Shown piece after piece: positions 13,592 through 20,280 of a DNA stretch of 64,000 bases (within the stretch, counting starts at the first letter, position 1; each line of letters begins with the position of its first letter). This DNA comes from Alphaproteobacteria bacterium (GTDB lineage: Bacteria > Pseudomonadota > Alphaproteobacteria > TMED109): positions 1-64,000 of the forward strand of contig JAJDZX010000113.1 in assembly GCA_022824395.1 (NCBI GenBank). The letters are read 5' to 3'. The translations under genes were made by a program, and so were the position numbers. Under the pieces are notes generated by a model. It saw only the letters and a list, made by a program, of their open reading frames with translations, did not search any database and was not told the origin of the DNA.

Positions 13592-15181
13592 CTACGTGCC
13601 GATCGCCGCCCCGTCCTTGCGAGGATCGGATCCAGCCGACAGCACCCCGCTGGCGGGATCGATCGCAATGGCCTGACCGCCGCCGAGCGGCAGGTCGGGC
13701 ACCACAACCTCGTGCCCGAGCCGCTCCAAGGCGTCTCGCGTGGGTTGGGGCACGCCCCGCTCGCAGTTCAACACGCCGTCGAAATGGAAGGCCCGGGGGC
13801 AGTCGAGTGCCTCCTGCACATCCATGCCAAAGTCCACGACGTTGGTCAAAAAGTGTACCTGCCCGACCGGCTGGAAATGGCCGCCCATCACGCCGAACGG
13901 CATCCAGGCTCGGCCGTCACGCACGGCCATCGCGGGAATAATGGTATGCATCGGGCGCTTACCCGGCATGAGCTCGTTCGGATGGCCCGGGTCCAGCACG
14001 AAGCCTGCTCCGCGATTGTGAAGCATGACGCCGGATTCGGGCGCCAGGATCCCGCTTCCGAACGAATGGAACAGAGAATTGATAAACGACACCGCGTTGC
14101 CGGCGCCGTCCACCACGGCCAGGTAGACCGTGTCCCGGTGTTCGGGCAGGGCGGACGGCGCGAGGCCCGGCGTCATCCGCTGCCGGTCGATCCGTGCACG
14201 AAGCGCCTCGGCGTGCGCCTCGCCGAGCAGTGCCGCCACGGGGACCTCGACGTGCTCCGGGTCCGCCAAGCGGGCTGCCCGCTCAGCGTACGCGAGACGG
14301 GTCGCTTCGGCTTCGAGATGGAAGCGGTCCGGGCCCAGGGGATCCAGTTCCGCGAGATCGAACCCGGCCAGCAGGTTCAGCATCAGGAGGGCAATGATGC
14401 CCTGACCGTTGGGCGGGCACTCGTACACGTCCACGCCGCGATACCGGGCCCGGATGGGCGTCACGTAGTCGACAGCGGCGGCGGCAAAATCGTCCTCCGA
14501 GTGCACGCCGCCCACCCGGCGCAACTTGGCAACGATGTCCCGCGCCACGGGTCCTTCATAGAAGGCGGCAGCCCCCTGAGCCGCAATGGCCTGCATCGTC
14601 TCGCCGAGACGCGGTTGGCGATGCACGTGCCCCGCACGAGGCGGACGTCCCTGCGGGAGAAACACGGCCGCGGCATCCCGGTCCGCCTGCAACTTGTCGT
14701 GCTCGCGGCGCCAGGCGTCCGCGACCACGTCGGCAACCGGGTACCCGTCGGTGGCATAGGCGATCGCCGGCGCGAGCGCGCGCGCGAGGTCCAGACGGCC
14801 ATGATCCGCCAGCAGGCGCTCCCAAGCGCGCACGGCGCCGGGAACGCTCACGGCGTGCGGGCTGGTGAACGGAATTGCGGCCATGCCGGCATCACGCAAT
14901 GCGGCCGCCGACGCCGACGCCGGTGCCCGACCCGAACCGTTGAGGGCGATGACTTCGGAGCCACCGGCCGGTGCATACAGGCAGAACACGTCGCCGCCGA
15001 TTCCCGTCGATTGGGGCTCCACCACGGCCAGCACCGCCGCCGCGGTCACCGCTGCGTCGACCGCATTGCCGCCTTCGCGCAGCGCGTCGACAGCAGCCAG
15101 GGTGGCCAATGGATGGGACGTCGCCGCGGCGGCGCGGGTTCCGCGTACCGGAGAACGGCCGGGCAGGTGAATGTCACGCAT
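13592..15181 (-). CDS. ggt: Gamma-glutamyltransferase family protein
   Basis: A 529-residue Ntn-hydrolase-type precursor with the family's HPLATLAAVDALREGGNAVDAAV block near the N-terminus, the GDVFCLYA strand, and a central EHRDTVYLAVVD where the Thr after Asp is the expected autocleavage nucleophile. MHTIIPAM and the GVMGGHFQPVGQ block follow in the small subunit. No signal peptide is evident from the ATG at 15181, where the conserved MRDIHLPGRSPVRGT sequence begins, although an upstream GTG at 15223 is possible. It may cleave gamma-glutamyl bonds of glutathione or related compounds, which fits the grxC-nitrilase neighbours. Family members vary in substrate, so the activity is inferred. Confidence 0.85.
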   Translation of the reverse strand: MRDIHLPGRSPVRGTRAAAATSHPLATLAAVDALREGGNAVDAAVTAAAVLAVVEPQSTGIGGDVFCLYAPAGGSEVIALNGSGRAPASASAAALRDAGMAAIPFTSPHAVSVPGAVRAWERLLADHGRLDLARALAPAIAYATDGYPVADVVADAWRREHDKLQADRDAAAVFLPQGRPPRAGHVHRQPRLGETMQAIAAQGAAAFYEGPVARDIVAKLRRVGGVHSEDDFAAAAVDYVTPIRARYRGVDVYECPPNGQGIIALLMLNLLAGFDLAELDPLGPDRFHLEAEATRLAYAERAARLADPEHVEVPVAALLGEAHAEALRARIDRQRMTPGLAPSALPEHRDTVYLAVVDGAGNAVSFINSLFHSFGSGILAPESGVMLHNRGAGFVLDPGHPNELMPGKRPMHTIIPAMAVRDGRAWMPFGVMGGHFQPVGQVHFLTNVVDFGMDVQEALDCPRAFHFDGVLNCERGVPQPTRDALERLGHEVVVPDLPLGGGQAIAIDPASGVLSAGSDPRKDGAAIGT

Positions 15182-15365
15182 GGGAGTCTCGGTCCAGGTC
15201 CAGTCGAGAGACAGGTCGGGCACGTACGCCGGGAACGGCCCCGTCGCATTCTATTGGCAACGCGCGTGAACGGGCACACAGCGCCGTCGCGGACCGGTGC
15301 CGCCGAACCTGCACCACGCGGCCGAAGACCCGCTGGCAGACAGGGCCCGACCGGCGGTTCGCGCC
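15182..15365. other. Intergenic segment upstream of the met promoter
   Basis: Together with the leader that follows, this makes a gap of about 350 bp between the divergent ggt and the first met-operon start codon. I see no convincing ORF, RNA gene or repeat in this part. It must hold the ggt promoter, but no clear -35/-10 pair stands out on the minus strand. Confidence 0.5.
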
Positions 15366-15394
15366 TTGACCGGCTAAATCCCCGTCTCTACAGT
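15366..15394 (+). promoter_or_regulatory. Sigma70-type promoter of the met operon
   Basis: TTGACC (15366-15371) and TACAGT (15389-15394) are separated by exactly 17 bp, matching the consensus at five and four of six positions. Transcription would start near 15401, immediately before the structured leader described next. It is the best promoter-like sequence in the gap between ggt and metF. Confidence 0.55.
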
Positions 15395-15400
15395 CGTCAC

Positions 15401-15527
15401 TGCATCCTGAGGGGTTGACGCACCCCACCAACCTGCAGCCCGTGCAAGGTGGTTTCCCGGCAGGGAGATGTGGCCAGACGGCAATCACGGGCGTCAGCCT
15501 CCTCAGCGTGCGCCGAAGGAGGTTGTC
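15401..15527 (+). promoter_or_regulatory. Structured 5' leader with a Shine-Dalgarno-sequestering hairpin (candidate riboswitch or other cis-regulatory RNA)
   Basis: Four hairpins follow one another: GGGGT/ACCCC (15411-15426), a bulged stem of about ten base pairs (15427-15453), TCCC/GGGA (near 15455-15466), and a 9-bp stem pairing CAGCCTCCT (15495-15503) with AGGAGGTTG (15517-15525). The last one buries a perfect Shine-Dalgarno sequence, GAAGGAGG, five bases before an ATG at 15528. The segment GAGGGGTTG at 15409-15417 can also pair with CAGCCTCCTC (15495-15504) with one bulged base, which would free the Shine-Dalgarno sequence. Two mutually exclusive folds are the mark of a translational switch. 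It does not match SAM-I, SAM-II, SAH or cobalamin riboswitch cores as I know them. The structure is read by eye. Confidence 0.5.
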
Positions 15528-15704
15528 ATGCTGCACGGCTCCGGGTCCACTTCTCCGGGTGAGTGTTCGGCCGCGCCACGGCGCGGCTTGCCCACAGCAG
15601 GACCGTCGATCCCCGACCGGTGCGTCGGTGACCACCCGCCAGGTGCCGCCGCCCGGCTCCCCACGGACGCCGCCGTGGCTGCCGTCGCGGCCGGGTCGTC
15701 ATGA
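15528..15704 (+). CDS. Small ORF coupled to metF, function unknown
   Basis: A 58-codon frame starting at an ATG five bases after a perfect Shine-Dalgarno sequence (GAAGGAGG at 15515-15522). Its TGA overlaps the metF ATG by the four-base ATGA arrangement seen elsewhere in this genome. The peptide starts MLHGSGSTSPGECSAAPRRG and ends in an Ala-rich stretch; it contains two cysteines, no signal peptide and no motif I recognise. The strong initiation site and coupling suggest it is translated, perhaps so that control of this start sets metF expression. The sequence is low in complexity and may not make a stable protein. No homologue comes to mind. Confidence 0.4.
   Translation: MLHGSGSTSPGECSAAPRRGLPTAGPSIPDRCVGDHPPGAAARLPTDAAVAAVAAGSS
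15570..15587 (+). other. Perfect hairpin within the small ORF upstream of metF
   Basis: A 7-bp inverted repeat, GCCGCGC and GCGCGGC, with a 4-nt loop. No T-run follows, so it is not a classic terminator. It could slow ribosomes or polymerase between the leader switch and metF, or be incidental in GC-rich DNA. Confidence 0.3.
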
Positions 15705-16587
15705 CACAACCGACCGTCAGCTTCGAGTTCTTCCCACCCGCGGATGACGCGGCCGTGCAGCGCCTCCAGCGGGTCATGCGTCGACTGGTCCGGCTCGGGC
15801 CCGCGTTCTTCTCCGTCACGTACGGCGCCGACGGCTCCACGCGCTCGCGAACCGAAGGGCTTGTGTGCTGGATTCGCCAGGACCTCCCCGTGCCGCCGGC
15901 GGCCCACCTCACCTGCGTCGGGTCGACCCGAGCCCAGACGGATGCCCTCGCCCTACGCTGGTGGGCCCTGGGAATCCGTCACATCGTGGCCCTCCGCGGC
16001 GACCCGCCGAAGGGCGCCGACCGGTATCGCCCCGAACCCGGCGGCTACGGCCATGCCGCCGATCTGGTGCGCGGGATCCGGGCCGCCGCGGCGTTCGAGA
16101 TTTCGGTCGCAGGCTATCCGGAACCGCATCCGGAATCACCCTCACCGGCGGCCGACATCGACAACCTGAAAGCCAAGGTGGACGCCGGCGCCGACCGGGT
16201 TCTCACGCAGTACTTCTTCGACAACGCGTGTTTCCTGCGCTTCCGCGACCGGTGCCGCGCCGCCGGCATTACGGCACCGATCGTGCCGGGGATCCTGCCG
16301 GTCACCGACTTTCGGCGGGTCGCAGAATTCAGCCGACGCTGCGGCGTCACGATCCCGCCGCGGATAACCGCGATCTTCGAACCCCTGGACGCCGACGCCC
16401 GCACCCGCGAAATGATTGCCGCGGGCGCTGCGGTGTCGCAGTGCGAGGATCTCCGGCGCGAGGGCGTGAACGCCTTCCACTTCTACACCCTGAACCGCGC
16501 TCGCCTCAGTTACGCCATCTGCTGGTGGCTGGGACTCCGGGGGGCCGCTGACCCGGGAACAGCGCGGGCGGCTGCGGAGCCCGGCAC

Positions 16588-16591
<4 letters not shown>
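15701..16591 (+). CDS. metF: 5,10-methylenetetrahydrofolate reductase
   Basis: A 296-residue TIM-barrel flavoprotein that makes the 5-methyl-THF used by MetH. The N-terminal [10 protein letters not shown] carries the catalytic Glu of the family, [11 protein letters not shown] and LRGDPPKG follow, then the TQYFFDN and PGILPVTDF blocks that bind folate and FAD, and a C-terminal [12 protein letters not shown]. Length agrees with E. coli MetF (296). It is coupled at its start to a small ORF and at its end to metH by a GTGA overlap, so expression probably depends on the leader at 15401-15527. Confidence 0.95.

Positions 16592-20280
<3,689 letters not shown>

Follow-up and report, generated by a model that had tools for sequence, protein, structure and literature searches.

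The window, a 64,000-nucleotide stretch of DNA from a genome of 3.7 Mb in 133 contigs, carries metF and metH on its forward strand behind a promoter, a structured leader and a short leader ORF (Table 1). The start of metH overlaps the end of metF as GTGA, and a gamma-glutamyltranspeptidase gene (PF01019) lies divergently from the riboswitch operon at 13592-15223 on the minus strand. Downstream genes without a Pfam assignment were named by eye. The nearest titled relatives of metF, at 89-96% identity, come from Alphaproteobacteria MAGs, one of them labelled Rhodospirillales. The promoter that an earlier sequence-only reading of this DNA (hereafter the initial annotation) had claimed is present exactly as described and is kept in all seven genomes of the genus, with hexamers and spacing constant and the bases of the spacer variable. 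P1 of the aptamer begins after seven further bases 3' of the TACAGT hexamer, and transcription is predicted to start near position 15402, the first base of P1.

Table 1. Coordinates of the promoter, leader elements and genes at the metF-metH locus
Feature	Position	Strand	Basis or remark
Sigma-70-like promoter TTGACC-17-TACAGT	15366-15394	+	TTGACC 15366-15371, TACAGT 15389-15394, spacer 17 nt; same hexamers and spacing in 7/7 genus genomes
SAM-I/IV riboswitch aptamer (RF01725)	15397-15498	+	Rfam covariance model, model positions 1-99 of 99
P1, GCATC and GATGT	15402-15406 and 15467-15471	+	Rfam structure line
Strand A (anti-anti-SD), CTGAGGGGTTGACGC	15407-15421	+	Partner 15491-15506 when the aptamer is unformed; duplex -30.9 kcal/mol, swap tests
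P2 hairpin without internal loop, GGGGTTGACGCACCCC	15411-15426	+	Rfam structure line, folding
P3 hairpin region, core CCAACC and GGTGG	15428-15452	+	
PK-2 5' strand GCCCGTG	15438-15444	+	Perfect 7-bp complement of 15486-15492
P4-like hairpin TCCC-GGCA-GGGA, between P3 and P1	15455-15466	+	Predicted in a fold with P1 and P2 forced
P5 hairpin GGCC-AGAC-GGC, 3' of P1	15472-15482	+	Rfam structure line
PK-2 3' strand CACGGGC	15486-15492	+	Shares 15491-15492 with the strand-A partner
Strand B (anti-SD), CAGCCTCCTC	15495-15504	+	Two alternative partners: strand A and the SD
Strand C with Shine-Dalgarno (SD), AGGAGGTTG	15517-15525	+	9-bp hairpin with 15495-15503
Leader ORF, 58 codons	15528-15704	+	Stop TGA within the metF ATGA; SD and ATG in 7/7 genus genomes
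metF, methylenetetrahydrofolate reductase	15701-16591	+	PF02219, E 7.7e-89
metH, B12-dependent methionine synthase	16588-20280	+	PF02965, PF02574, PF00809, PF02607, PF02310

The initial annotation had proposed a candidate new RNA switch in front of metF-metH, unlike the SAM-I, SAM-II, SAH and B12 riboswitches, had called for an Rfam covariance-model search, and had itself named a clear hit to a known class as grounds for abandoning the idea. That search returned a known class: the leader matches the SAM-I/IV riboswitches (RF01725) over the full length of the model and at 55.1 bits against a gathering cut-off of 41.1, where SAM-I/IV, which shares a clan with SAM-I, is the best of the overlapping clan members and the only one that the scan retains. 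On the strength of this match we reject a new class; judged by its sequence, the metF-metH leader is a representative of a known one, and almost certainly a member of RF01725. SAM, which the initial annotation had rightly listed among the natural ligands, is the ligand that membership in this family would predict. The alternative of a new class sensing SAH, methionine, cobalamin or methyl-THF draws on the use of these metabolites by the products of the downstream genes and on a J1/2 segment that deviates from the SAM-I/IV consensus, but the full-length match includes CCAACC, GGTGG, P1, P2, P3, P5 and PK-2, and no other Rfam family exceeds its own cut-off in the window, so that we consider this alternative extremely improbable.

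Alignment to the model structure places P1, an undivided P2, P3 and, after P1, P5 in the leader, with the P2 helix GGGGU/ACCCC unbroken, and a P4 helix (UCCC-GGCA-GGGA) is predicted when P1 and P2 are forced. PK-2 connects the P3 loop to the 3' tail through the seven base pairs of GCCCGUG:CACGGGC, and both of its strands occur in 7/7 genus genomes. The core letters CAUc-AAGAG, CCAACC, GGUGG and AUGcGG are present save for the first two of J1/2, which reads CUGAG in place of AAGAG; this is the sole difference from SAM-I/IV that we found, and the same two letters also vary among the 33 group representatives introduced below. Across these 33 groups, the PK-2 strands of one leader pair in a mean run of 4.97, compared with 4.45 for swapped strands (15 of 20,000 permutations as good), in a test that scores the best run anywhere in both strands, so that the run of some groups lies off the PK-2 place. 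In the part of Weinberg et al. (2010; PMC2864571) available to us, an undivided P2 is the feature that separates the variant termed 'SAM-I-IV-variant', with which the aptamer shares the core, the undivided P2, P5, PK-2 and the P4-like hairpin. SAM-I/IV is likewise described, in an excerpt of a second report, as possessing P4, an undivided P2 and no PK-1, and as having a ligand pocket in common with SAM-I and SAM-IV (PMC6890682). From these two classes, which belong to the same clan, the leader differs by a P2 that lacks an internal loop.

The three strands on which the initial annotation built two exclusive folds were located as well. GAGGGGTTG at 15409-15417 is a competing strand exactly where it had been placed, and the buried SD hairpin was exact in its coordinates: CAGCCTCCT (15495-15503, or 15504 with one further C) pairs with strand C in 9 bp, including one G-U, at -16.5 kcal/mol for the hairpin by itself. 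Strand A takes in J1/2, the 5' half of P2 and the P2 loop; since its partner overlaps the 3' strand of PK-2, the aptamer and the A:B helix are mutually exclusive. The free minimum-energy fold is the long-range A:B alternative at -62.1 kcal/mol, compared with -53.9 kcal/mol when P1, P2 and the SD hairpin are forced, with pseudoknot and ligand uncounted. The A:B fold is thus better by 8.2 kcal/mol without ligand or pseudoknot, as would be expected if closure of this OFF switch required SAM; in this ligand-free fold a 3-bp hairpin still contacts three bases of the SD strand. Relative to shuffled sequences the whole leader is modestly more stable (z -1.97; 9/200 as good), so that folding energy alone is no proof and the case rests on the RF01725 match together with the swap tests.

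For the swap tests, 46 SAM-I/IV loci were sorted into 33 groups with one locus each, drawn by hand at about one per genus, of which 24 have a GC content of at least 0.5; some groups share one family and are therefore not fully independent. Covariation can come from other genera only, because the aptamers of the genus itself are nearly identical. Strands A and B from the same leader formed more stable duplexes than swapped strands across the 33 groups (mean -19.4 vs -15.8 kcal/mol; 0 of 5,000 permutations as good) and across the 24 GC-rich groups (-22.4 vs -19.3 kcal/mol; 0 of 20,000), and again in 0 of 20,000 permutations when the genus of the window was left out of the GC-rich set. Seven of the 33 groups ran the other way, with an own duplex weaker than both swapped means (L006, L012, L020, L107, L108, L116, L126), and results were mixed in L013 and L121. 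In 26/33 groups, strand B shares four or more bases with the 5' arm of a hairpin further downstream, and among these a loose motif match finds that 15 lead to an SD with start codon and nine to a U-run, some to both; in some groups the U-run lies between SD and start and need not be a terminator. Fewer than four bases are common to both helices in the other seven, three of them AT-rich (L006, L007, L121) and four with GC of at least 0.5 (L005, L103, L116, L126), and L006, another metF-metH switch, thus combines a weak own A:B duplex with few shared bases. The pair of exclusive folds proposed in the initial annotation is supported by the swap tests, although not in every group, and the data support the three-strand mechanism as a platform of the known riboswitch class: in many SAM-I/IV aptamers, a P2-side strand competes for an anti-SD or anti-terminator strand. 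Four small AT-rich genomes from the family to which the window belongs (L012, L013, L017, L020; ~1.2-1.6 Mb) have hairpin-forming sequence and a long U-run behind the aptamer, a platform suggestive of transcription termination rather than SD masking.

The initial annotation presented the masked SD as part of a switch in front of metF-metH, but this SD is not that of metF: it precedes the ATG at 15528 and opens the 58-codon leader ORF, with metF beginning 173 nt further on. At this distance we reject the idea that the masked SD controls metF directly. We also reject a longer metF whose N-terminus would extend to the SD: the metF frame has additional upstream starts at three loci (L011, L014, L015), none of them at the SD, and in L002 the start is listed at 15701. 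The 20 bases before metF (GCCGTCGCGGCCGGGTCGTC) contain no recognisable SD, and none was seen by eye at this place in the other six genus genomes. All seven genomes consequently combine a masked SD on an upstream ORF, an AUGA overlap that is in frame and a gene devoid of its own SD. The leader ORF spans 58-59 codons, or 49 in the one genome with a 10-codon deletion (L010), and its length varies by 3 or 30 nt, in both cases a multiple of three; its TGA is forced by a metF that starts Met-Thr. We conclude that metF-metH are probably controlled through translational coupling from the leader ORF.

This coupling step is weakened by the +1-frame control. Between the two clades of the genus the leader ORF has a pN/pS of 0.69-0.83, compared with 0.15-0.19 for metF, and the +1 frame gives 0.70-1.02, a range that overlaps the values of the leader ORF and is as low in the L009 comparisons; the +2 frame lies above 1. 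An open frame could not serve as proof of coding either, as column shuffles leave all seven leader ORFs without a stop in 3.7% of cases, and only one stop falls in the nearly as open +1 frame across the seven sequences. Such weak constraint, together with the lack of a Pfam match, would suit a metF that is translated independently, with the leader ORF incidental in GC-rich DNA and the SAM-I/IV switch acting via mRNA stability, Rho termination or a distant SD, and the metA leader of S. meliloti offers a precedent for a distant SD and a SAM effect on mRNA stability, as described in the portion of that report at hand (PMC9373788). We nevertheless hold this explanation to be unlikely, if a serious competitor, given that SD, ATG and in-frame ATGA are kept in 7/7 genomes, that lengths vary only by 3 and 30 nt, and that metF has no SD. 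Alternatively, the peptide encoded by the leader ORF of the switch might be functional and regulate MetF/MetH or act as their partner. Second codon positions do change least (39/161 changes; permutation P 0.0046), and the peptide retains HGSG near its N-terminus in 5/7 genus genomes and SPG in 6/7, but a pN/pS far above that of metF, the loss of ten codons in L010 and the absent Pfam match make a peptide function improbable in our estimation, well behind an incidental ORF.

SAM-sensing switches of the described family turn down methionine-making genes. Our preferred reading, to which we assign a probability of roughly 0.65, is that the SAM-I/IV riboswitch lowers translation when SAM is plentiful and that the leader ORF passes this effect to metF-metH by coupling; the aptamer membership, the competing strands, their better-than-swapped pairing and the conservation of leader ORF and ATGA in the genus are computed results, and SAM as the ligand, the OFF direction, the transcription start and the coupling to metF are inferred. 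Without SAM, strand A would pair with 15491-15506 and leave the SD (15517-15522) largely free, ribosomes would translate the 58-codon leader ORF and continue at the ATGA into metF and metH, and methyl-THF and methionine would be made. With SAM bound, P1, P2, P3 and PK-2 would retain strand A, strand B would be set free to cover the SD, and the whole operon would be translated less.

Rfam covariance searches found a single copy of RF01725 in the source genome and placed it before metF in 7/7 genomes of the genus. Matches above the cut-off were present in 12/28 genomes of the family, in 19/97 of a mixed set of relatives and, under stricter filters, in 35/385 sampled genomes of the class. A scan of 20 of 79 titled metF loci, hand-picked for spread and none from the genus itself, returned no match, and the switch is therefore no general feature of metF among the loci sampled. 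A second genus of the family (genome G009, locus L006) has RF01725 immediately ahead of metF, followed by the beginning of metH; Pfam confirms both genes, and no leader ORF intervenes. Because the switch adjoins metF directly in this one genome, the leader ORF may be a later addition, and we lean slightly towards the view that a 58-codon ORF dedicated to this relay was inserted between the SAM-I/IV switch and metF-metH after the split from the related genus.

Elsewhere in the class, SAM-I/IV riboswitches in four families (L005, L008, L110, L113, L114) precede small ORFs with the motif HR..xWTHLY, in which H, R, W, T, H, L and Y are invariant in 5/5 products. Pfam returned no match for the products of L008, L110, L113 and L114, and by their sequences these proteins possibly form a SAM-controlled orphan family. 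In a single genome (G311), RF01725 occurs four times, each time on a different contig (L102, L118, L119, L126); the ORFs behind L102 and L118 had no Pfam match.

At metF-metH, then, the riboswitch class is known and the output arrangement is of a published kind; less usual is the action via a short leading ORF. Among the matches listed in the literature on riboswitch uORFs, translational coupling, leader peptides and metF, the accessible text describes no SAM-I/IV uORF relay. The S. meliloti metA leader resembles our locus as an alphaproteobacterial SAM switch whose SD is distant from the start that is used, serving a start 74 nt downstream; it differs in its SAM-II class and in its in-frame AUG2 and terminator, and the part of the report consulted makes no mention of an overlapping leader ORF (PMC9373788). 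A closer likeness of output is found in ppe2 of M. tuberculosis, where, according to the available excerpt, a B12 riboswitch acts as a translational OFF switch on a uORF whose AUGA overlap hands translation to an SD-less gene (PMC11260477). Ligand and aptamer differ between the two systems, and coupling, established experimentally by reporter mutants in ppe2 (PMC11260477), is deduced here. If our preferred reading is true, the leader-ORF relay would be the SAM-sensing counterpart of the M. tuberculosis B12-uORF relay, and a testable case of riboswitch control forwarded by translational coupling.
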